This document shows, in pieces, positions 4,965 through 41,429 of a stretch of 64,000 bases of DNA. Within the stretch, counting starts at the first letter, position 1; each line of letters begins with the position of its first letter. The DNA is from a virus: the IMG/VR virus record IMGVR_UViG_3300005613_000001, positions 440,279 to 504,278 of that record; one strand, given 5' to 3'. A program made the position numbers and the translations under genes. The notes beneath the pieces were generated by a model. That model did not search any database. It was not told the origin of the DNA and was given only the letters and a program-made list of their open reading frames with translations.

Positions 4965-5774
4965 TTATGCATATCCAAAAAATCTGTTGTAATCTTGAAA
5001 CCTATTCATAATAGTGTTTGCAAGATCAGGAGAAAAATACTGCCTCCACTCGTTAGGATCAGAAGCCTCAACCTTACCCGATCCCGTGTGTGGGAACTTA
5101 TGCAAATAAAATCCATCAGGGTCTTCAGCGGTGTTCTCTATGTTTTCAAAATCATGCTCAAATAGTGTTTCGTCTAATTCAGTGTAAATCTTCTCAAAGA
5201 CACCATTTGGATCGGCTGCCATACTCTCATACTGAACATAAACAACACCAGGCGGTTTGCGACGAATTAAATCCTCAATTCCTAAAATGGGACCACCTAT
5301 CAAACCCTGTTCACTAAACATACGGTTTGCCCTGTCAAAAACAGTCTTTTGAATGGCATTCTGAGCATCATCCAATAGAGGATTCTTTCGATGTTGTTTC
5401 TCTATAGAAGCAAAAACATTTCTTAAATCCCGCACCATCACAATGAGCTTGGAATCAGGATAAAGCTTCTTTAATGAAAGGGAATTGAGTGACCACGCCC
5501 GGCTCTTATCAAAAATAATCTCCCGACTTTCCTGCTTATACCAAGTTTCTACGAAAGCCTGGATACTATCTGTAATCCGTTGCTCGGTTTCCACCTTCTT
5601 TTTCTCTAAAAGACTTTTTACCTCTACGGCATTACTGATATTATGAACCATACCATTGAGAATTCCCGGCAAAGGAGATGTACTGGTAGCCCAAAACCGT
5701 GGGTTCTGATTCAAAATATTACATAAAAGCGTACTACCAGCCCTCGGTAGCCCCGTAATAGCATTTAATTTCAT
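4965..5774 (-). CDS. Sulfotransferase family protein (1 of 4)
   Basis: A 269-residue protein with the two PAPS-binding signatures of the sulfotransferase superfamily: the 5'-phosphosulfate loop near residues 7-20 (TGLPRAGSTLLCNIL) and the 3'-phosphate site around residues 112-126 (VMVRDLRNVFASIEKQ). The family transfers sulfate from PAPS to hydroxyl or amino groups of sugars, lipids or tyrosines. The length is that of a single domain. It starts immediately after the stop of the 142-residue gene upstream and shares that transcript. The acceptor is unknown; the neighbouring fibre genes make virion glycans or proteins a possible target (inference). Confidence 0.82.
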   Translation of the reverse strand: MKLNAITGLPRAGSTLLCNILNQNPRFWATSTSPLPGILNGMVHNISNAVEVKSLLEKKKVETEQRITDSIQAFVETWYKQESREIIFDKSRAWSLNSLSLKKLYPDSKLIVMVRDLRNVFASIEKQHRKNPLLDDAQNAIQKTVFDRANRMFSEQGLIGGPILGIEDLIRRKPPGVVYVQYESMAADPNGVFEKIYTELDETLFEHDFENIENTAEDPDGFYLHKFPHTGSGKVEASDPNEWRQYFSPDLANTIMNRFQDYNRFFGYA

Positions 5775-6203
5775 TTATGTGATTCCCAATGCTGTTTCAA
5801 CTTCTTCTAGTTGGGTTTGCAATGTAGCGATCACAGCAGGATCTTCCTCCGCCTCAATTTTTTCTCTAAGTATTTTTTCTTTAGATAAATTAGCCACAAC
5901 CGCAACTAATCCACCCATCACTTGCGCCAATGCTGGAACTCTGGCTGATTCTGTCAAGAGATTTTCAATTTCAAACACCTGGGGTTGCGGTGGTCCTAAT
6001 TCTGAAGTATCAAAATTATAAGGAACCATAATTGCTCTTGCGCTAGGGACCAGGGGGTTTTCGCTTGGATTTCTACGATGTTGGCGAACATTTGCCGTAA
6101 CGTGCAACTCTGCAATATAGCGATCTGGATATGTTTTCTCCTCTGTGGCAGGAACCGCAGGGATTACAACTGGATCGACTGAATCTATTCTTGGTAAAGA
6201 CAT
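5775..6203 (-). CDS. Hypothetical protein, possible fibre-associated or assembly protein
   Basis: A 142-residue protein preceded by AAAGGAG. The first 75 residues are Pro-rich and extended (VVIPAVPATEEKTYPDRYIA), and the C-terminal 60 form a hydrophobic then heptad-like coiled coil (KEKILREKIEAEEDPAVIATLQ region). There is no signal sequence. The arrangement, just downstream of fibre genes, is like small phage fibre-assembly or head-fibre proteins, but no family is recognised. Its stop is directly adjacent to the start of the sulfotransferase gene. Confidence 0.5.
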   Translation of the reverse strand: MSLPRIDSVDPVVIPAVPATEEKTYPDRYIAELHVTANVRQHRRNPSENPLVPSARAIMVPYNFDTSELGPPQPQVFEIENLLTESARVPALAQVMGGLVAVVANLSKEKILREKIEAEEDPAVIATLQTQLEEVETALGIT

Positions 6204-28781: not shown

Positions 28782-29312
28782 ATGTCCCAATTAGAATACT
28801 TTAATGGTAAGATCGTTACGATACTTACAACTCCAATCAATCGCAACTTTAAAGAAGAGGCCGCAGCACTAGGAAAACCCAAGCTATTTCCTGCCAACCT
28901 CATGGATCACTTTGTCGGGCGTTTTGAGAGTTATGATGCACTAGGGGTGATGTTGGCTCACCCTGATGCCGCTGTAGGTACAAAAGCCTACTATTTTTTG
29001 GATAAAATTGTAGGGATTGTTGAAGAACAGGAATTAAATCCTGACGATCCCCAGGAAGCTGAATTAATTGAAAAATACAAGGCATTAAAGCAAACACCGC
29101 CTCAAGATAAGGTGTATTGCCCCAAAGGACATGCACTAGATATACCACCTAATATCAAACCTGGATCACTTGTAGCTTGCCCTAAATGTCAAACTCAATT
29201 CCAATTGCCTGACGATAATCCGCCTCAAGATAAACCCGCCCCAATAAATCAATCCAACTTTGTGGATATTGATGGGATGTCCAAACTAGCAGAAGAAGCT
29301 AAATCAAAATAA
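28782..29312 (+). CDS. Protein with C-terminal zinc ribbon, unknown function
   Basis: A 176-residue protein. Residues 1-105 are helical and acidic without a known motif. Residues 110-142 form a zinc ribbon (VYCPKGHALDIPP, then ACPKCQTQFQLP) of the kind common in planctomycete and other bacterial regulators. The tail is Pro-rich. No clear ribosome site is present. It converges on and overlaps the gene ending at 29304 by 9 nt. It could be a transcriptional or replication accessory protein by analogy with its zinc ribbon; that is not shown. Confidence 0.6.
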   Translation: MSQLEYFNGKIVTILTTPINRNFKEEAAALGKPKLFPANLMDHFVGRFESYDALGVMLAHPDAAVGTKAYYFLDKIVGIVEEQELNPDDPQEAELIEKYKALKQTPPQDKVYCPKGHALDIPPNIKPGSLVACPKCQTQFQLPDDNPPQDKPAPINQSNFVDIDGMSKLAEEAKSK

Positions 29313-30407
29313 ATCATCTAAATCATCAAAATGATCGTCGTCGGTGGGTGTAGATATAAGCGTATCAATATCACCGGGTTCAGGTGGTGGTGGTATAAAC
29401 TTTGAAGGTTCAAAAATCTCTGGACCTTCTTTTTTCTTTGTAGTCTTTTTCTTCGTAGTCTTTTTCTTCTTCTTTTTAGCAGCCGCCGCCTTATCTTCCG
29501 CAGAGCGTAATTTAATTGTCATCGGTTTCTTTTTCTTTGGCGTTGACGTTGGTTTAGATTTTGATTTGGGTTCTGGTTTGGGTTCTGGAGGTTCTGGTTT
29601 GGGTTCTGGAGGTTCTGGTTTGGGTTCTGGAGGTTCTGGTTTGGGTTCTGGAGGTTCTGGTTTGGGTTCTGGTTTGGGATATTGTATGGCTGGTCGTGGG
29701 GGTTTACGATGTTTGGTAATATAAACAAGTATATCATCACCTTCAACCCCTGCTTCTTTAGCATCAACTATCCACTTCTCCGCTTCAGAAGGCGTCAATT
29801 TCATTTTTATCAAACTATCATATACATCTTTCTCTGCTCCCTCAAATGATGCTCTGGAAGGCTTTGGAGGCTTCTTTTCTTTTTTCTCTTCTTGTGCTTG
29901 TGGAATTTTCCCTGCCCGAGTAATAGCAGCATCTAAATTCCTTCTAAACAGCCTTTTCATGGTGTCTGCAAATTGATTAAGTGCAGCCCCAATGTTATCA
30001 TTGCCCAATTCATTTTCTAATTGCAGATAAGCATTATGGGTATCTTTATAAACTCCCAGACTTGCATGTTCGAGTCCTAGTTTTTTCTTAATAGCTTGCC
30101 ACCAGCGAGGAGACTCATATTCCGTGCCCGTCTGTGGGGATTCCCCCGTAGACCAGTTGCGCATCCGATCTCCTGTCGCTTGCATTTTGTCCCCTGCCCT
30201 CCATAACCAGTGAGCCAAACCAGAGCCCTTCCCAGGTTGATTTTGCATTATTTGGGTGTATAAAGAAGCAACCATTCTATCAATTTGTGCATCAATAGAA
30301 GGCAAAAGATCACTCATGATTTGATCTTTTGTTACACCGGCTTCCAGTTCGTCAGCCTCAATTAATTTTTGGGGATTTGCAAATATTTCATTAAGTGGGA
30401 AGTCCAT
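29304..30407 (-). CDS. Lys/Pro-rich protein with EPKPEPP repeats
   Basis: A 367-residue protein. Residues 1-180 are helical (SIDAQIDRMVASLYTQIMQN; ALNQFADTMKRLFRRNLDAA). Residues 180-240 include a compact helical segment (VYDSLIKMKLTPSEAEKWIV). A stiff linker of 7-residue EPKPEPP repeats follows (about 248-277), then a strongly basic region (KKKKKKTTKKKTTKKK) and an acidic C-terminus ending DDDHFDDLDDLF. The basic part looks histone H1-like and may bind DNA. No family is recognised. It shares its first base with the stop of the upstream DUF5659-like gene, and lies downstream of the actin-like ATPase in the same run. Confidence 0.6.
   Translation of the reverse strand: MDFPLNEIFANPQKLIEADELEAGVTKDQIMSDLLPSIDAQIDRMVASLYTQIMQNQPGKGSGLAHWLWRAGDKMQATGDRMRNWSTGESPQTGTEYESPRWWQAIKKKLGLEHASLGVYKDTHNAYLQLENELGNDNIGAALNQFADTMKRLFRRNLDAAITRAGKIPQAQEEKKEKKPPKPSRASFEGAEKDVYDSLIKMKLTPSEAEKWIVDAKEAGVEGDDILVYITKHRKPPRPAIQYPKPEPKPEPPEPKPEPPEPKPEPPEPKPEPPEPKPEPKSKSKPTSTPKKKKPMTIKLRSAEDKAAAAKKKKKKTTKKKTTKKKEGPEIFEPSKFIPPPPEPGDIDTLISTPTDDDHFDDLDDLF
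29581..29664. repeat. Four perfect 21-bp tandem repeats
   Basis: Four identical 21-bp units beginning at 29581, 29602, 29623 and 29644, encoding EPKPEPP on the minus strand, flanked by partial copies. The perfect identity suggests recent expansion. Confidence 0.9.
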
Positions 30408-30916
30408 TAGATACCTTCTAATACATAGTCACCTATTTTTTTCAAGGACATAAGGCAGGCATCAAATCTATGAAATTCACTTGACAAATATTGTAATCTC
30501 AATTCTTGAAACCCATTCATACCTGTATCTGTTAAATCGAAAAAGAATGATTGTCCTCTTCTTCCTACCACCTTATTTTTCTTTTTCATAAGTATATAGG
30601 CTGCGGCACCTAAATCTGATACTTCCCCTATTTCCCCGACATTTGGCTCATGTTCTCTCATTTTCTTGAGAGACATTAAGCATGAGTCAAATTTATGAAA
30701 ATCGCTTGAGAGATACTCAAAATTTAGATTATCAAAGTCATCAAGCTCAGACTCATTCATAAGGAAATATACTGCTTGTCCTTTCTTTCCGCCGATTTCG
30801 TGCTTGTTCATTAGACAAAAAGCAGCGGCACCTAAATCGGTTACATACTTTACAACTCGTTTTTCTTCCACTTTCTTTACCTTTCTTATACTGCATTTTC
30901 TGCGGCGATCAAACAT
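30407..30916 (-). CDS. Tandem DUF5659-like protein
   Basis: A 169-residue protein made of two copies of one domain: residues about 25-85 (VTDLGAAAFCLMNKHEIGG, YFLMNESELDDF, YLSSDFHKFDSCLMSLKK) and about 101-162 (VSDLGAAAYILMKKKNKV, FFFDLTDTGMNGF, YLSSEFHRFDACLMSLKK). The single domain resembles DUF5659, a small alpha/beta domain of phage and bacterial proteins of unknown function. A basic N-terminus (MFDRRRKCSIRKVKKVEEKR) suggests nucleic acid or filament contact. It overlaps the 3' end of the actin-like gene by 31 nt; AGGGG lies just before its start. Confidence 0.68.
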   Translation of the reverse strand: MFDRRRKCSIRKVKKVEEKRVVKYVTDLGAAAFCLMNKHEIGGKKGQAVYFLMNESELDDFDNLNFEYLSSDFHKFDSCLMSLKKMREHEPNVGEIGEVSDLGAAAYILMKKKNKVVGRRGQSFFFDLTDTGMNGFQELRLQYLSSEFHRFDACLMSLKKIGDYVLEGI

Positions 30917-31893
30917 CCCCTGCTAACGCTATAAAGCGGATCAGTAGGACGGATTATCTTACCTATCTTAATTGGCAATTTCGCTTGTTTAATAACATCA
31001 TTAAACAACGCATCAAACCCATTTGGCAAACTTGATCCTCCGGCAATTACAATATCAATTGGATCGTCTGTTCTTGCTTTCTTACCTGCACCTGCCAAAC
31101 CTTCTTTAATGCCTGTAGCTGTCTTTTCCATCATAATTCTATATTGAGTTTGAATGGCTCTTTCTACAAGCGTGCTTGGTTCTTTCGTTAAATCAATATT
31201 TCTCTTTTCTTTGTTGATAAAAGTAGCCGTTTCACTAACCGCCTTGGCAGCCCTTTTGTCAATCCAGTCACCACTATTAACTAATGAAAAACTAAATACT
31301 GGCGCACTGTAAATAGAGAAGCACAGATTTACCATTCCCGCCCCAAATGAAATTCCAATGCCTGTATATGCCTTTTTCCCAAGCTCAGCATACACCAATG
31401 CTAAGCCCTCGTTAATGGGTTGAGCATTTACTGTGTGTCCGGTTTCATCTTTAAACGCCTTAAAAATAGCCTCTAAGACTTTACCGTGATAATCTGCATC
31501 GGTCTCTTCATTAATGGCATTTGCCGGGACGCTGTAATATAAGGTTTCTTTGTCCTTAGACACATTATCCAACAGGCTGTGGACCATAATTTTTAAAATC
31601 TGAAAGGCATGAATCTCACCCGGATTCACACACCCTTCTTTCATAGGTCTCTTTAGATTTAACGCACTCATCGTATAAGCCATATCTACGGCTTTCTGTC
31701 CCAATGCATAAGCAATATCATCTCGCTCAACAAGAGGAACGCCTGCATTTTTCATCATATTAAATACAAAACGGTTCTCTAATGGGAATTCAAGGAAGGC
31801 ATTTACTTCCTTCTTATGAACAAAATTCTTATTTTCATCTCGCTGACAAGTCACTAAATTATACGTGCCCGCGTCAAAACCGATTCCTGACAT
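30886..31893 (-). CDS. Actin-like ATPase (ParM/Alp-type)
   Basis: A 335-residue protein with the three nucleotide-binding signatures of the actin/Hsp70 superfamily: GIGFDAGTYNLV (phosphate 1, residues 3-14), GIGISFGAGMVNLCF (phosphate 2, about 178) and IVIAGGSSLPNGFDALF (adenosine, about 287). The length fits bacterial and phage actin-like proteins that form filaments for plasmid segregation or positioning of phage DNA and virions. No ParR-type adaptor is evident; the tandem DUF5659-like and the Lys-rich proteins downstream, and the 74-residue protein upstream, are the obvious partner candidates. Confidence 0.85.
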   Translation of the reverse strand: MSGIGFDAGTYNLVTCQRDENKNFVHKKEVNAFLEFPLENRFVFNMMKNAGVPLVERDDIAYALGQKAVDMAYTMSALNLKRPMKEGCVNPGEIHAFQILKIMVHSLLDNVSKDKETLYYSVPANAINEETDADYHGKVLEAIFKAFKDETGHTVNAQPINEGLALVYAELGKKAYTGIGISFGAGMVNLCFSIYSAPVFSFSLVNSGDWIDKRAAKAVSETATFINKEKRNIDLTKEPSTLVERAIQTQYRIMMEKTATGIKEGLAGAGKKARTDDPIDIVIAGGSSLPNGFDALFNDVIKQAKLPIKIGKIIRPTDPLYSVSRGCLIAAENAV

Positions 31894-32178: not shown

Positions 32179-32340
32179 TTAAAACTCCCAAAAAGGGATG
32201 GTTTCGACAGGGATAGGACCATCACCACTACCACTAGAACTGGAACTAGAACTGGATGATGTGGGTGGGCGTTGTAGACAATTTTTAATCCAATTAACGA
32301 GGCGCTTGAGGGCATCCAATAATTTCTTCAGCCATTGCAT
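32179..32340 (-). CDS. 53-residue amphipathic-helix protein with a poly-Ser linker
   Basis: A short gene supported by GGAGG 5 nt before ATG and by its position 1 nt after the stop of the GT9 gene. Residues 1-23 form an amphipathic basic helix (MQWLKKLLDALKRLVNWIKN), followed by RPPT, nine consecutive serines, GSGDG and the hydrophobic end IPVETIPFWEF. It may associate with a membrane surface. It is the last gene of the run starting at the ExbB-like gene. No known family. Confidence 0.68.
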   Translation of the reverse strand: MQWLKKLLDALKRLVNWIKNCLQRPPTSSSSSSSSSGSGDGPIPVETIPFWEF

Positions 32341-32341
32341 T

Positions 32342-33337
32342 TTATCCTCCAATGATTTTCAATGGTTGCTTTAACATCTTATCTACTCCTAATAGAATCA
32401 TGTCTGCTGTAAGTTCTGTCAAACAGGGTTTTGGATATGCCTTACTTTTTGGGCAATCGGGCCAATTATAACAAGGTCCACAGTTCCAGTTGCCGTCGTC
32501 TCGATGCTTTTGTACAAGTGTCCAATTTTCATACCACCTTCCATATACCTTTCCATCGACCATTGTGAAAATACCAACCTGGGGCTTTCCCAAACCCCCG
32601 GCCATATGAAAGGTCGCTGTATCGACTGAGACTATATAATCCGCTGATGCAACAAAACTCATCCATTTTCTAATAGACCCCATAAGCAAAGGCACTTTTA
32701 GATGTTCAAGCATTGGGATTGGACCCGTATGTGTGTAAAACACATAGCATCCACGCTCCCGTAGTCCGTTTACGACCCCCTCCATTTGATGTGAAATTAA
32801 ATTTTTAGTCGCCATTGCTGAAATTGGCGAAAATAATACTGTTGGTCCACTCTGGGTGCGATGAGACTCAATTTCTCGCTTCGCCTCTATTAATTCTTGT
32901 TCACTGAATTGGAAGTGCATATTGTGGTTTTCTAGTGCAACCCCACAATGGTTAGCCCAAATATCACTTCTATTTTTGCCAGAGAGAGGGGCCATTCTGA
33001 CTTCATACCGACAGCACGCATTGGTAGTATTATAAGATGTCAGATAGTCTCCCTGGTCTATTTTTCCAGAATCAACCAGTTCATCTACAAAGGGGTGTCC
33101 TTTGATTGCTTGGTGATATATCCCTGGGCAAGCAAAAACTATCTTAGCATCGGGCATAATCCTTTTAAAATCTTCAAAGATCATTCGGTGAACTAGAATA
33201 TCCCCTAGTCCCCCATTAGCACGATAAATGAGTATAGAATTTCGCTTGTCGCTAAATTCCCTTAAAGACAGATTGGTAGTTCTCTGGCTTTTTTTGACAA
33301 GTCTTGATAATAACTTCTTATGCTGAAGTGCTCTCAT
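32342..33337 (-). CDS. Family 9 glycosyltransferase (heptosyltransferase-like)
   Basis: A 331-residue protein with the GT9 landmarks: GGLGDILVHRMIF near residue 42, HPFVDELVD, and the C-terminal nucleotide-sugar site YIVSVDTATFHMAGGLG followed by KPQVGIF. GT9 enzymes are ADP-heptose:LPS transferases and relatives. A C-terminal cysteine cluster (CGPCYNWPDCP) is present, as in some phage and bacterial members. It overlaps the upstream two-TM protein gene by 4 nt (ATGA) and so is coupled to the ExbB/TolR-like operon. Acceptor unknown: host LPS or virion protein. Confidence 0.82.
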   Translation of the reverse strand: MRALQHKKLLSRLVKKSQRTTNLSLREFSDKRNSILIYRANGGLGDILVHRMIFEDFKRIMPDAKIVFACPGIYHQAIKGHPFVDELVDSGKIDQGDYLTSYNTTNACCRYEVRMAPLSGKNRSDIWANHCGVALENHNMHFQFSEQELIEAKREIESHRTQSGPTVLFSPISAMATKNLISHQMEGVVNGLRERGCYVFYTHTGPIPMLEHLKVPLLMGSIRKWMSFVASADYIVSVDTATFHMAGGLGKPQVGIFTMVDGKVYGRWYENWTLVQKHRDDGNWNCGPCYNWPDCPKSKAYPKPCLTELTADMILLGVDKMLKQPLKIIGG

Positions 33338-33921
33338 TCAAATAATTTCGCAGGGAATTTAGGAGGCGGCAATTGGTAGAACCGGGGTACTTGTCTTTGG
33401 CTGAACGACCCGTGCCCACGCCCTTGACCTTCGCCTTCGCCTTCTCCTTCACCCTCTCCTTCTACACCAAATGGTTGCCCCCTGCCTTTGCTGGGGTCTG
33501 TTGTACCTCTAAAGCTACCGCCTCTTTTTAAATGTTGTTGGATTGCATGTCCTTGTTCGTGTAACGCTCTGGAATAGGGCAATTCATAAACACGGGGCTC
33601 ATCTTTTTTAACTTCGAATGGACTATCTTTTTCATCAGTGGGGTTTAAATCTTTGGCCCAAACGAGGACACCACCTTCATCATTATCACTGGGTTCATTA
33701 ATAATAATCCAATATACTTGGAATTTTTCTGGCATTTGCTCTGTAGACGGCCAGCCGAACAAGCTATTAATTGCAAACCAAACACCAAAGCCCAAGAATA
33801 ATGTTGCTGTAATGGTTATCATTTTAATTACCCACAGACCTTTAGCTCCAATAACAAACCAAAGGATGAGGGCAGACAACACAATGAAAGCTATAGGAAT
33901 AGCAGACGTTTCTAAACTCAT
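33334..33921 (-). CDS. Two-TM protein with Gly-Glu repeats, third member of the ExbB-like operon
   Basis: A 195-residue protein with two N-terminal membrane helices (about 8-25, PIAFIVLSALILWFVIGA, and 30-52, VIKMITITATLFLGFGVWF), a beta-type region (FQVYWIIINEPSDNDEGG; VLVWAKDLNP), a helix (LPYSRALHEQGHAIQQHLKR) and a low-complexity GEGEGEGEGEGQGRGHG stretch before a Pro/Phe C-terminus. The HEQGH string looks like a zinc-protease HExxH but sits in a charged helix typical of a phage family ('PYSRxLHEx..') and has no third ligand. Overlaps of 4 nt with both neighbours mean coupled translation with the TolR-like and GT9 genes. Confidence 0.62.
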   Translation of the reverse strand: MSLETSAIPIAFIVLSALILWFVIGAKGLWVIKMITITATLFLGFGVWFAINSLFGWPSTEQMPEKFQVYWIIINEPSDNDEGGVLVWAKDLNPTDEKDSPFEVKKDEPRVYELPYSRALHEQGHAIQQHLKRGGSFRGTTDPSKGRGQPFGVEGEGEGEGEGEGQGRGHGSFSQRQVPRFYQLPPPKFPAKLFE

Positions 33922-34568
33922 GGGTCTACCTCCTCTTCATAATTATTTTCATCAAAACCTCCACCATTAACTGCTTTATCTGCAATGGTCTTGGGCAATT
34001 GATTCATACTTACCACGGAGCCCTTTTTGTCTAATAAGAACCTGCAAACAGTTTTTTCATCACCATCTTCGTCTAGTGTAACCTTTTTTATAGCCACGGT
34101 TTTGAGTGTTGGATTAATTTTATCAATCTGGACGGTAACCTCAGTAGGTTTATTGGGAGTTCGCTTCGCATACATGTGTACGTTCATTACATACTCACCA
34201 GGGATAATACCTCGAATCGTTATAATTTCCCTATTTTCGTTATATTTAATTGTCTCACCATCAGGAGTCTTAAAAGTATCATTGCTATGCCCTAAATCGT
34301 CACGATCTAAGTGCATTAGTCCATCTTCCCGCCTCCTAAAGAACACAAGATGGTCAGCGGGGTCTTGCAAATAAGAATCTACATCATTATTTAACTCATT
34401 ATCCCAAGTGGTTGTAATAACAAACTCAGCTTTGGCTTCAGAGGCATTATCCAGTTTTGCTTCTGGATTAATTAAAATGTAAGCTATGAAGAATAACGCT
34501 ACAAATCCCAATAGCGCATTGAATAGCAAATCTAAGAAGGCTGTATTAGCCCCATAATATTGTCTCAT
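33918..34568 (-). CDS. TolR/ExbD-like anchored protein with DUF2135-like domain
   Basis: A 216-residue protein. An N-terminal membrane helix (residues 10-32) is preceded by AFLDLLFNALLGF, with an Asp at the cytoplasmic side of the helix as in ExbD, TolR and MotB, where it carries the proton path. The exported part is not an OmpA or TolR periplasmic domain: it reads as a beta-sandwich, WDNELNNDVDSYLQDPADHL, RREDGLMHLDRDDLGHS, IPGEYVMNVHMYAKR, resembling DUF2135/YfaP-like domains (DxDLxVxxPxG ... G.Y.V.V..Y). It lies directly behind the ExbB/TolQ-like gene (1 nt shared), supporting a channel-stator pair. Confidence 0.7.
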   Translation of the reverse strand: MRQYYGANTAFLDLLFNALLGFVALFFIAYILINPEAKLDNASEAKAEFVITTTWDNELNNDVDSYLQDPADHLVFFRRREDGLMHLDRDDLGHSNDTFKTPDGETIKYNENREIITIRGIIPGEYVMNVHMYAKRTPNKPTEVTVQIDKINPTLKTVAIKKVTLDEDGDEKTVCRFLLDKKGSVVSMNQLPKTIADKAVNGGGFDENNYEEEVDP

Positions 34569-35149
34569 TAGATGTCCTTTTTGACTAAATTTAGTCCTTG
34601 AGCTAGATTAAAATACTGGATTTTAAGGAGTTGAGAACAAATTAAACCGATAAGAGTAGTATAGAGGGCTGTAGACATACCTCCACTCATGCTGCTTAAC
34701 AAATCCTGTACGGACGTGATATCACTTACATCTAAGGTGCTAAATCCAACGAGCATTAAAATAAAACCACTTACTGTTCCAATCATACCTATATTGACAC
34801 ACATTTCACTTGAAAACCAACCAATTTCTTCCAACCTAGATAGCTTCTCAACTTCATCTTCCCACTTTTTTCGTCTTACTTGTTGTCTTTTTCTTTGCTT
34901 TGGAGGAAGTGAAGCTTGCGGCCCAGGTCGCGGCGGCACATCCATATTCAGCACATTACTTAATTTGAATGTTTTCAATCCACACCAAGCTGAGACATAT
35001 ACAAATATCCCAAAAATAACAAAACTAAGTTTGGTTAAATCTCTTTCCCAAACCTTTTGAAAAGCATCCATATAAAAGGCTGCTACCACTCCCACAAGCA
35101 CTAAACCGATTACAAGCCACCATTTTAAAAATAATTTGTGTTTAATCAT
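34568..35149 (-). CDS. MotA/TolQ/ExbB-like proton channel protein
   Basis: A 193-residue protein with four hydrophobic segments (about 9-28, 41-58, 117-140, 153-175). The region GMIGTVSGFILMLVGF followed by SSMSGGMSTALYTTLIGLIC matches the signature of the MotA/TolQ/ExbB family (GllGTVxGMI..., ...AlxTTxxGLxxAip). A basic cytoplasmic loop (residues 75-100) separates the pairs of helices. Family members form pentameric channels around a dimer of ExbD/TolR/MotB and use the proton gradient. The gene is first in a coupled five-gene run (35149 to 32179). Confidence 0.8.
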   Translation of the reverse strand: MIKHKLFLKWWLVIGLVLVGVVAAFYMDAFQKVWERDLTKLSFVIFGIFVYVSAWCGLKTFKLSNVLNMDVPPRPGPQASLPPKQRKRQQVRRKKWEDEVEKLSRLEEIGWFSSEMCVNIGMIGTVSGFILMLVGFSTLDVSDITSVQDLLSSMSGGMSTALYTTLIGLICSQLLKIQYFNLAQGLNLVKKDI

Positions 35150-35243: not shown

Positions 35244-35855
35244 TTAGCTGTTGCAGCTTGAACGAATGGACAGAAGAACGGCAACATCGGCGTCAGCGGC
35301 ACCAGATTCACTGTTTGCAACCTGAATCTTGGAGACAGCCAAATCACCATTGTTGAAGATCTGCGTATCGGCAGCAGCCAACGTAAAGGTTGCTGTGGTT
35401 AGACCATTCAAGCGAACCTGAACAGAACCAGAACCATTGTTGGTAATCTGCGTGAACACAGCGGCGGAACCGTATGTGGTCACAACATCTACCTCGTTGT
35501 CCGCAAAAGTAGTACCCGCAGTGGCGGAAATCGTGGTTGCAGCGGGATATGTATTCTCGCCAGCAACGTCAGAATAAACACTACCATCATCACTTACCAC
35601 TTCAACAATTGCATCTTCAAGAGAGCACTGTGGGTAAGCAAATCTCTTCCAATAATTACAATCCGTAAATGTCTCCCCGTCAGACAACTTACGATTAATT
35701 AAATTTGGACCCATAACATAAACTTGACGTTGCTTAGAAGGATCAATCTGATCTCCAAGCCCTTGACCCGTAACGGCACCGGCTGATGCGGTGGAGGGGT
35801 CTTTGTCCAAAAGGCCCTGTTCAACGTTGTTCAACGCAACTCTAAATACGCTCAT
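35244..35855 (-). CDS. Putative abundant virion protein
   Basis: A 203-residue Ala/Thr/Val-rich beta-type protein (VITNNGSGSVQVRLNG-like segments; DTQIFNNGDLAVSKIQV) with no catalytic motif or membrane segment. GAGGAG precedes the start by 6 nt, its codon use looks more GC-rich than adjacent genes, and it has its own strong terminator. These are signs of a highly expressed late structural product such as a decoration or fibre-tip protein. A CATATATAC element lies about 50 nt upstream. No family is recognised. Confidence 0.62.
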   Translation of the reverse strand: MSVFRVALNNVEQGLLDKDPSTASAGAVTGQGLGDQIDPSKQRQVYVMGPNLINRKLSDGETFTDCNYWKRFAYPQCSLEDAIVEVVSDDGSVYSDVAGENTYPAATTISATAGTTFADNEVDVVTTYGSAAVFTQITNNGSGSVQVRLNGLTTATFTLAAADTQIFNNGDLAVSKIQVANSESGAADADVAVLLSIRSSCNS

Positions 35856-38189: not shown

Positions 38190-41100
38190 CTAAACTCTAG
38201 GGCAAGGAACAATTGCAACACATTGCAATTCTTCTTCGCTAGCCCCAGTGAGCTTCTGTATGTCTAAATCAATCTTGACATTGACATCTATTGGCTTGCC
38301 CTTGTAAACCATTTCTACTTCCATATCTTCTGGAGCTTTGAGGTAAATTTCCTCGGGTATATTATGAATTAGAGTAATAGTCTCAGGGATTCCTGTTACT
38401 TTAATGCTGTTTGGAATGCCAGAAGCATCTAGCTGAATCGATTTGGGAAAATCTTCAGGCACTAAAAGATCAATAGATTCAGGTATCGCAGGAGCAATTA
38501 ATTCAATAGATTTAGGAACATCTGTAGCTGTTAACTCAATGGAAGTTGGAATTTCAAAATCAGAAACAATTTTAATTTGTTCTGGGATTTTGGGGCCATC
38601 AAATGTAATTTTTTCTGGAATATTCCCTTCTAACTTAATAGATTCTGGCAAATCATGCTTTAATTTAATAGCCCTTGGCATCTTGGGGGCAACAACTTGA
38701 ATAGTAGAAGGAATGCCAAGATCACCAACTTCAACAGTCAAAGGGTCATCTTCTTTGAACATATCTTCATCAAAGAATCGTGATGATTGCCTGTTCTTTT
38801 TATTCTGCGAAAATGCCTGTGAGGTTGCACTAACAGAGCTAGGACACGAAACCGTCACAACACAACTAATAGTGGGTGGATCACTCCATGTAACCGTTAG
38901 GTCGGGTGCCTCCATTGTAATCTGAGTTGGTATTTCACAATCACATACAATTGCAATTTCTGATGGAATATCACAATCACATGTAACATTAATTTCGGAA
39001 GGTATATCACAATCACATACAATTGTAATTTCTGACGGTAGATCGCCAGAGACATCAGCCCCTAAAACAACTTCAATTTGTGAGGGAAGGGATTGGCTCA
39101 AATCATCAGCCGCTCTAATTTCAATTGTCGAAGGTATTGAACCAGCGCTCTCTCCGGCTTCAATAAGAATAACCGATGTGAAATTCTCCGGCATTGCCCC
39201 AAATCCAACCTCAGATGGAATTGGTGTTTCCATTGGAGCAAATCCAACTTGGGATGGAATTGGTGTGTCCATCGAGCCGAAATCAACTCGGGATGGAATT
39301 GGTGTTTCCATTGGAGTAAATCCAACTTGTGATGGAATTGGTGTGTCCATCGAGCCGAAATTAACTTGGGATGGAATTGATTCCATTGAACCAAATTCCA
39401 CTACTGAAGGCACAGCATTCCCCGTAAATTCCACTACCGAAGGTACAGCATTCCCCGTAAATTCCACTACCGATGGCACCTCATTCCCTGTAAGTGTAAT
39501 CTCAGATGGAACTGTCCCTGTAAGTGTAATCTCAGAAGGCAGAGAACTCTCCCCGAATTCAACTACCGATGGCAAAGGACTGTCCGCAAAATCAATTATT
39601 GATGGTACATCATTCCCTGTAAGTGTAATCTCAGAAGGAACACTCAAACCCGTAAGTGTAATCTCAGATGGTATATCATCATTCACCTGAATCATTGATG
39701 GCACACTATCTGTAACTGTAATCTCAGACGGCACTTCCAAACCCGTAAGCGTAATCTCAGATGGTATGTCATCCATCACCTGAAGCACTGATGGAATATC
39801 ATGATTTACTTCAATTATTGATGGAATATGATCCGTAGGTCCAAAATTAATTACCGATGGAATATCATGTTCTACTGTAATTATTGATGGAATATGATCT
39901 GTGGGTCCAAATTGAATTAATGATGGAATATCATGTTCTACTGTAATTATTGACGGAATATGATCCGTAGGACCAAATTGAATTATTGATGGCAAGTCAT
40001 GTACTACTTCAATTACCGATGGGAAAGGAAGAGGTACAGGTCCAAAATTAATTACCGATGGAATATCATGATCTACTACAATTACCGATGGAATATGATC
40101 TGTGGGTCCAAATTCAATTATTGATGGTAAATCATGCACTACTGAAATAATTGATGGAATATCATTGGGAAAATATCCAAATTCAATTAACGACGGAATA
40201 TTAACAGGACTAAATGTAATATTCGATGGAATATCAACGGGACCAAATGTAATCACAGATGGAATATCAACAGGGCTAAATGTAATCACAGACGGAATTT
40301 CAACTTCTCCGAATAAAATAATAGACGGGAAATTAACCGCGTCTCCAACAACTGAAATTACCGAGGGTATATTGACGGGTCCAAATAAAATAATTGATGG
40401 AATGTCAAGAGGCCCAAAATTGATTATTGATGGGATTTCAAGAGGCCCAAATTCAATTAATGTTGGGATGAAAATGTCACCAAATGGACTAAAACTTAGA
40501 AGAAAACTTGGGATATCAAAATCTAAACTTATACAAGGAAATAAAATAGGCGGCACAATAACTTCAGGCGGCAAGAAGTCGCAGTCAGGAATATCACAAT
40601 TGGGATAATCAGGAACTTCAGGAACCGGAATTTCCAATATTGGATTTACATACCCCGGAGCAGGCAAATTAGATTGGTGTCGTATAGTAGGTGTTTGCAC
40701 AACTTGGCAACGAGGGTCTGTTACAATTACCACTGGGTCAATAGTAGAATTAGGCGCATATCTGTGAGTGCCCTGTGTCTCAGTAGTGGTAAATGTTCCA
40801 TCACCAAAATCTAATTTATATTGAGTGTATAGCCCTTCAATGTCTATATTGTATTCTAAATCAACACCAACACACTCATTGCTTGTCTCAGCAACCTTTG
40901 TTTCAAAGCTGCCCACTGTCACACAGAAATCATCTAAACACAAAGGGGTTTCATCAAGACACCGAATACGGAAATCTAAAGTTTCTGTATCAACGTCATA
41001 GTTGTAACCTATAAACTCTTCAAGATCTATTACAGCATCAGCTAACTGGTTGTGGTGTTCGGCAACTACCATACCGCGAACTATTGTGCCTGTTCGGGGG

Positions 41101-41429
41101 CAAATAGCAGTGCCAGCTATAGTTGAATTATATTGTGTTTCTTCACCACCTAGATTTCTTAAAGCCTTTTTGAGAACATTAATTTTACCATTAGCATCAT
41201 ATCCAACATCTGCATAATAAAATAATTCTCCTCCTATAGTTGCAAAACCGTTGGTAGGCCAGATTTCCGTTTCATTTATCCCAACTGGCACAATATAGAC
41301 TTCTTCCGACCACGGCTGATTATCAGTCGCCAACACACTCTCTACAGTGTTATTGACTAGATAAAGCGTGTGATTGCTGTTAATCCCCAGGGGATATACA
41401 GGAGTTGGGGGGAAGTTTTGTTGTGCCAT
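38190..41429 (-). CDS. Large repeat protein with IPSxI repeats and a PKD-like domain
   Basis: A 1079-residue protein. Residues 1-190 form a module also found in the two genes upstream (VVAEHHNQLADAVIDLEEFIG near residue 125). Residues about 190-260 contain a PKD-like domain (YKLDFGDGTFTTTETQGTHRY). From about residue 305 to 833, and again 906 to 1026, the chain is a succession of short units [IVLF]-P-S-x-[IV]-x-[FVLI], about 58 by my count, spaced mostly 9-13 residues apart; in the last block PS becomes PE or PK. Such regular spacing suggests a beta-solenoid or fibrous stack. A Cys-rich stretch (VCDCDIPSEINVTCDCD) lies near 800. It belongs to the virion fibre or baseplate periphery by context. 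Confidence 0.7.
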   Translation of the reverse strand: MAQQNFPPTPVYPLGINSNHTLYLVNNTVESVLATDNQPWSEEVYIVPVGINETEIWPTNGFATIGGELFYYADVGYDANGKINVLKKALRNLGGEETQYNSTIAGTAICPRTGTIVRGMVVAEHHNQLADAVIDLEEFIGYNYDVDTETLDFRIRCLDETPLCLDDFCVTVGSFETKVAETSNECVGVDLEYNIDIEGLYTQYKLDFGDGTFTTTETQGTHRYAPNSTIDPVVIVTDPRCQVVQTPTIRHQSNLPAPGYVNPILEIPVPEVPDYPNCDIPDCDFLPPEVIVPPILFPCISLDFDIPSFLLSFSPFGDIFIPTLIEFGPLEIPSIINFGPLDIPSIILFGPVNIPSVISVVGDAVNFPSIILFGEVEIPSVITFSPVDIPSVITFGPVDIPSNITFSPVNIPSLIEFGYFPNDIPSIISVVHDLPSIIEFGPTDHIPSVIVVDHDIPSVINFGPVPLPFPSVIEVVHDLPSIIQFGPTDHIPSIITVEHDIPSLIQFGPTDHIPSIITVEHDIPSVINFGPTDHIPSIIEVNHDIPSVLQVMDDIPSEITLTGLEVPSEITVTDSVPSMIQVNDDIPSEITLTGLSVPSEITLTGNDVPSIIDFADSPLPSVVEFGESSLPSEITLTGTVPSEITLTGNEVPSVVEFTGNAVPSVVEFTGNAVPSVVEFGSMESIPSQVNFGSMDTPIPSQVGFTPMETPIPSRVDFGSMDTPIPSQVGFAPMETPIPSEVGFGAMPENFTSVILIEAGESAGSIPSTIEIRAADDLSQSLPSQIEVVLGADVSGDLPSEITIVCDCDIPSEINVTCDCDIPSEIAIVCDCEIPTQITMEAPDLTVTWSDPPTISCVVTVSCPSSVSATSQAFSQNKKNRQSSRFFDEDMFKEDDPLTVEVGDLGIPSTIQVVAPKMPRAIKLKHDLPESIKLEGNIPEKITFDGPKIPEQIKIVSDFEIPTSIELTATDVPKSIELIAPAIPESIDLLVPEDFPKSIQLDASGIPNSIKVTGIPETITLIHNIPEEIYLKAPEDMEVEMVYKGKPIDVNVKIDLDIQKLTGASEEELQCVAIVPCPRV

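Follow-up and report, generated by a model that had tools for sequence, protein, structure and literature searches.

A conserved phage gene trio related to proton-driven inner-membrane motors, with relatives in bacterial chromosomes

Proton-driven motors of the 5:2 type have been described as cellular machines that serve motility, nutrient uptake, envelope stability and defence. Whether a virus may carry such a motor of its own is the question raised by a 64,000-nucleotide stretch of viral DNA (positions 440279-504278 of the 527-kb IMG/VR record IMGVR_UViG_3300005613_000001; this whole stretch is called the window here), which encodes a baseplate wedge protein among its genes. Five minus-strand open reading frames (ORFs), made out by an initial annotation at window positions 32179-35149, were all confirmed at the same coordinates, and their junctions are overlaps of 1-11 bases, resembling a translationally coupled operon. 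Three of them, named A (34568-35149), B (33918-34568) and C (33334-33921), likely encode a compact inner-membrane motor driven by the proton motive force, of the same 5:2 kind as MotAB, TolQR and ExbBD, which would be a phage accessory acting on the envelope.

Three proteins in one conserved unit

Gene A, on the minus strand as are B and C, encodes a protein of 193 amino acids (aa) that the initial annotation had described as an ExbB/TolQ-type channel. That description holds, as the protein matched the Pfam family MotA_ExbB (PF01618) with E=1.6e-8 and 34.8 bits, above the Pfam cut-off of 22.9, and it was the sole match to this family across the 527-kb record. A profile of 64 A proteins matched MotA (8gqy, E=4.4e-5), TolQ (8odt, E=9.5e-5), PomA (8bri, E=6.7e-4) and, more weakly, ExbB chains, and its alignments placed the motifs GMIGTV and ALYTTL on channel helices of MotA, TolQ and PomA. 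These motifs contain the channel-lining threonines of A, T125 and T165, respectively, each of which is kept in 45 of 45 viral representatives; in the cellular representatives, T165 is kept in 19 of 19 and T125 in 15 of 19. Thr145 and Thr178 of TolQ are essential together with Asp23 of its partner, as are Thr148 and Thr181 of ExbB with partner Asp25 (PMC12905483). We read T125 and T165 of A as the corresponding positions, the residue-by-residue equation with ExbB being taken from the motifs. According to family-averaged hydropathy, A has four transmembrane (TM) segments (approximately residues 6-24, 41-59, 116-134 and 157-175), which is MotA-like, rather than three, and its cytoplasmic part is very short, consisting of a small basic loop. 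With 138-193 aa in most phages, and just 138 aa in the homologue of phage 16-3, A falls well short of TolQ and MotA in length and may rank among the smallest channel subunits for the study of such motors.

Gene B encodes a 216-aa protein, the putative ExbD/TolR/MotB-like subunit, with a cytoplasmic N-terminus and one inner-membrane TM helix at residues 8-33 approximately, which carries D13 in the sequence AFLDLLFNALLGF. The initial annotation had proposed an anchored, TolR-like protein with an Asp near residue 12; the single TM helix with a conserved Asp was found, with the residue being 13 and not 12. D13 is kept in all 45 viral and in 18 of 19 cellular representatives. A linker of about 15 aa separates this helix from a strand-rich, periplasmic beta-sandwich at residues 49-189 (AlphaFold model, pLDDT 86). 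Across 64 B proteins (the window protein and 63 relatives), 14 columns were invariant, including W55, D62, D64, R89, D90, D91 and E114, and the acid-rich sandwich, with D62, D64, D90, D91 and E114 all invariant, could bind metal.

The same annotation had called this exported domain DUF2135-like. The likeness was seen repeatedly in relatives and is weak: DUF2135 (PF09906) was matched by 3 of the 64 proteins with a best E of 0.0012, and one cellular relative exceeded the Pfam cut-off (22.3 versus 22 bits), while the window protein itself matched no Pfam family. Comparison with one DUF2135 protein by hhalign gave a probability of 48% with an imperfect alignment, and 4 of 3000 shuffles reached an equal score in a profile test. 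A profile search against ExbD/TolR (PF02472), which the annotation had suggested for this protein, gave no match for B or any of its 63 relatives at E<=0.01, and none of the 64 proteins matched an OmpA-family Pfam entry. When compared with viral models, B matched long, mostly uncharacterised phage proteins with E values down to 4.2e-5, one of them named tellurium-resistance-like, in agreement with its match to PHROG 1735.

The third protein, encoded by gene C (195 aa), has both features attributed to it at the outset, two TM helices and Gly-Glu repeats. According to the predicted model (pLDDT 82) and the charge profile, the two helices are joined by a basic, cytoplasmic hairpin, and therefore both ends of C are expected in the periplasm. 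A small folded periplasmic domain (approximately residues 66-140) is followed by a disordered, low-complexity Gly-Glu linker, and a C-terminal motif, F[YH]xLPPxxxPxK, is conserved in phage copies and in many cellular ones. C gave no Pfam, sequence or PDB fold match of note and has no named relative; its homologues adjoin B in most loci. In one gammaproteobacterial genome, gene C is duplicated after B, the two copies being divergent and in tandem (locus L169, 1756-2280 and 2298-2810).

In order to see how the three genes occur elsewhere, loci were collected by profile scans with B. The B-encoding stretches numbered at least 193 in viral sequences and at least 514 in genome contigs. The best 80 of each were taken, and the resulting set of 168 loci includes the window, its own sub-locus and one contig counted twice; gene calls are approximate in GC-rich loci, and neighbour tallies cover the top families only. 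A was present in 165 of 168 loci and C in 161, with C adjoining B in 145. Their order is fixed, A upstream and C downstream, all on the strand of B and normally touching. This conserved linkage excludes a chance occurrence of the trio, and the recurrence of the three genes in unchanged order in other phages and in bacterial genomes bears out the coupled trio of the initial annotation. Between close phage copies, the median dN/dS values of 0.11 for A, 0.13 for B and 0.11 for C indicate strong purifying selection on each gene. No constant fourth gene was seen among the 131 neighbour proteins of the phage copies, which are as diverse as DNA polymerase, epimerase, sigma factor, head closure protein and HNH endonucleases. 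Thus, the trio is a self-contained cassette, and the unit is exactly A, B and C.

Phage and bacterial copies of the trio

Among cultured phages, a search with B found 27 records, all of which were Rhizobium or Sinorhizobium phages, and none was recovered with A alone as the query. These cultured phages would open the proposed phage motor to simple genetics. Members of the Pootjesviridae carry the trio among DNA-metabolism genes. In the mapped temperate phage 16-3, profiles identified the products p038 (29 bits), p040 (82 bits) and p042 (27 bits) as A, B and C, respectively, and the trio is situated between immX and attP, in the arm termed the (genetically) silent region (PMC10460002); the trio thus supplies a hypothesis for hypothetical genes of that arm. 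In related cultured phages, homing-endonuclease genes or small ORFs lie between the trio genes with the order unchanged. The endonuclease genes (GIY-YIG type by sequence, Seg-like, and HNH) were located at 5252-5989 of locus L171, 5225-5983 of L174 and 6562-7104 of L172. A periplasmic-type protease gene, p036, precedes the trio in 16-3, and an HtrA/trypsin-like, probably periplasmic protease gene was observed directly upstream of A in 16-3-type rhizobiophages (L170, 6280-7179, with equivalents in L171, L172 and L174). With the 16-3 protease as the query, no IMG/VR locus was matched, and the sole other protease match was that of locus L006 to its own protein, a trypsin-like gene that follows the trio there. 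In the phages X2_25 and TM3, lysozyme genes are located about 4 kb upstream of the trio.

A trio restricted to phages was rejected as an idea, since chromosomal copies were found in roughly a tenth of the Pseudomonadota genomes sampled. It was present in 31 of 274 sampled genomes of one gammaproteobacterial class, 22 of 151 of a Burkholderiales family and 32 of 298 of a Hyphomicrobiales order; these rates, about 11% for both Gammaproteobacteria and Hyphomicrobiales, are rough, as the genome groups were centred on genomes reached via trio loci. In a desulfobacterial phylum, 1 of 247 genomes had the trio, and that one was the centre genome itself. Chromosomal copies have recurrent neighbours. 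In Burkholderiales, these are ABC genes of a PQQ-alcohol-dehydrogenase system and a lipoprotein-like gene, and PQQ genes are also found near the trio in several Alphaproteobacteria. Gammaproteobacterial copies lie beside tilS/accA, together with YkuD, DUF302 and a periplasmic von Willebrand factor A (vWA) protein whose gene adjoins C. Across the chromosomal loci, 15 had a YkuD L,D-transpeptidase homologue, 37 a PQQ-system ABC-ATPase homologue and 44 the downstream lipoprotein-like gene. One module links phages with the PQQ-dehydrogenase and L,D-transpeptidase loci of bacteria. In a quick tree, whose root is not known and whose between-clade support is moderate, 15 chromosomal representatives fell into one clade (SH-aLRT 99) with more diverse viral sequences around it, so that a simple recent gain of the trio by phages from their hosts is not favoured.

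Known motors and possible roles

None of the named systems, Zorya, Tol-Pal, Ton and the flagellar stator, matched the trio, each failing on defining features. TolQR and ExbBD share with it a channel subunit homologous by profile with the essential threonines aligned, an Asp in the single TM helix of the partner followed by a short linker to a periplasmic domain, and a third inner-membrane partner gene. In contrast to these systems, A has four TM segments and nearly no cytoplasmic domain, B has the DUF2135-like sandwich in place of an ExbD/TolR domain, and C, with its two TM helices, resembles neither TonB nor TolA; genes for Pal, TolB or a TonB receptor were not seen near the trio. MotAB and PomAB resemble it in the four TM segments, and among solved structures the A family matched MotA (8gqy) best, but A is without the torque-generating cytoplasmic loop, B is without the OmpA-type peptidoglycan-binding domain, and no flagellar genes lie near the trio. 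With the ZorAB proteins of Zorya it shares a 5:2-type core, A giving weak matches to ZorA models in the region of the channel core (21.9 bits at best), whereas A is without the long ZorA tail and B has no match to ZorB. The PADLOC families listed for the neighbours of the trio, 131 phage proteins (the first 25 of 29) and 137 cellular ones (all 16), contained no Zorya partner (ZorC, ZorD or ZorE); within the window, the Zorya scan covered A, B, C and the adjacent glycosyltransferase gene. Membership in Zorya was rejected on the grounds that B has no ZorB match and the listed neighbour families hold no Zorya partner.

Surveys of 5:2 motors report a variety of appended domains as well as new motors based on vWA proteins (PMC12505986, PMC12204202), and in the passages searched neither describes the trio or a phage-borne version of it. 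The vWA force-transducer motors (PMC12204202) are similar to the trio in having a TolQ-like gene and a partner that combines an Asp-bearing channel helix with a periplasmic domain of a non-standard kind; a vWA gene also lies beside C in gammaproteobacterial copies of the trio. They differ in that the Asp-helix protein of the trio has a DUF2135-like sandwich and not a vWA fold, and in that C is an extra subunit. The text of that paper mentions phages solely with regard to ZorAB defence. No description of phage-borne ExbB/TolQ pairs, or of DUF2135 in connection with phages, was found in open-access papers.

By analogy with these systems, A and B very likely form a 5:2-type proton motor, and C is probably its transducer. 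Five A subunits would form a channel surrounding the TM helices of a B dimer, and protons would travel from D13 of B along T125 and T165 of A, turning or rocking B, which would hold its acid-rich sandwich about 15 residues above the membrane. The periplasmic domain and C-terminal peptide of C may then fill the role that TonB or TolA has in other systems and relay the movement to a target in the periplasm or envelope. Phages would use this cassette on the envelope of an infected or lysogenised cell, and bacteria may use the chromosomal version with periplasmic enzymes, such as PQQ alcohol dehydrogenases and L,D-transpeptidase. Several points weigh against such a motor. The 5:2 ratio and the proton flow are carried over from the known systems; the fold search of the B model against the PDB gave no significant solved relative; and the proton path is not uniform, with Lys at the T125 position in 4 of 19 cellular A proteins and Asn in two 16-3-type phages. 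Those replacements, along with the small size of A, would also suit a membrane complex of passive or structural function in which proton conduction has been lost. We consider this quite improbable, as D13, T125 and T165 are all kept in the 45 diverse viral representatives and the genes are under strong purifying selection.

What a phage would gain from the proposed motor allows several readings, and the initial annotation had suggested infection, lysis or action against competing phages. It might keep a host-type periplasmic process, such as transport, metal or cofactor loading, or wall remodelling, running during a long infection. This is suggested by the PQQ dehydrogenase, ABC, L,D-transpeptidase, DUF302 and vWA genes beside the cellular relatives, as well as by the possible metal binding of the B sandwich; however, none of these partner genes turned up beside the phage copies, and the sampled chromosomal copies fall mostly in one clade beside deeper and more varied viral ones, so we propose it only tentatively. 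Alternatively, the motor might sense or oppose a second phage as it injects its DNA at the envelope, giving a Zorya-like superinfection exclusion. The weak ZorA match of A, the accessory-like placement among varied phage neighbours and the position in the silent arm of temperate 16-3 (PMC10460002) are consistent with this, although the missing ZorB match and Zorya partners, and the stable synteny of cellular copies with metabolic and cell-wall genes, unlike a defence island, make it a possibility on the doubtful side. Of these phage roles, a lysis or release factor, which would put stress on the envelope or open it at a late stage of infection, fits least well and is unlikely: an envelope location does follow from the topology, and protease genes precede the trio in 16-3-type phages as do lysozyme genes in X2_25 and TM3, but in Pootjesviridae it lies among DNA-metabolism genes, and the neighbour tallies showed no link to holins or spanins. 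We rate rival exclusion and envelope upkeep about equally, neither of them reaching even odds, and a benefit other than these or lysis as slightly less probable than either but more probable than lysis.

If such a motor is conserved in many phages, from those of 59 kb up to the 527-kb record, then viruses would themselves operate powered machinery at the envelope. More speculatively, tailed phages may own a minimal class of 5:2 motors for envelope work, in which the A subunit has as few as about 140 aa and nearly no cytoplasmic domain, the rotor or stator domain is DUF2135-like and the transducer has two helices, and the chromosomal copies may descend from viral motors.

Genes around the trio

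The remaining two ORFs of the coupled five had been noted by the initial annotation as directly following the trio, and their membership in the system was not supported. One of them (32342-33337, minus strand, 331 aa) encodes a GT9-like glycosyltransferase with a real match to PF01075 (E=4.5e-7). Its homologue in five related phage loci (L038, L047, L048, L052 and L053) is on the opposite strand and at least 3 kb from the trio, adjoining a homologue of the window gene at 35244-35855, which places GT9 outside the system. The other, a small ORF at 32179-32352 (minus strand; 57 aa from a TTG start or 53 aa from an internal ATG), was noted as amphipathic in the initial annotation, and it has no homologue in any other locus of the set. 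Both were therefore rejected by synteny as partners of the trio. In the window, the genes at 35244-35855 and 32342-33337, both on the minus strand, flank the trio, while in those five loci they are each other's neighbours, so the trio seems to have reached its place between the two by insertion or relocation.

Several other genes were observed around this locus and elsewhere in the record, including a vWA-domain protein (PF00092, E=1.4e-8) at G000:C1:327375-327782 (locus L175). On the minus strand of the window, 38190-41429 encodes a 1079-aa protein with dozens of IPSxIxFG-type repeats, which resembles a fibre protein or a repeat protein of the surface, and 29304-30407 encodes long PEPK/PEPP proline repeats plus a basic stretch. 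A few genes downstream of the trio in this huge-phage genome, the product of 30886-31893 (minus strand) strongly matched Volactin (PF25216, E=1.7e-66), an archaeal actin family.

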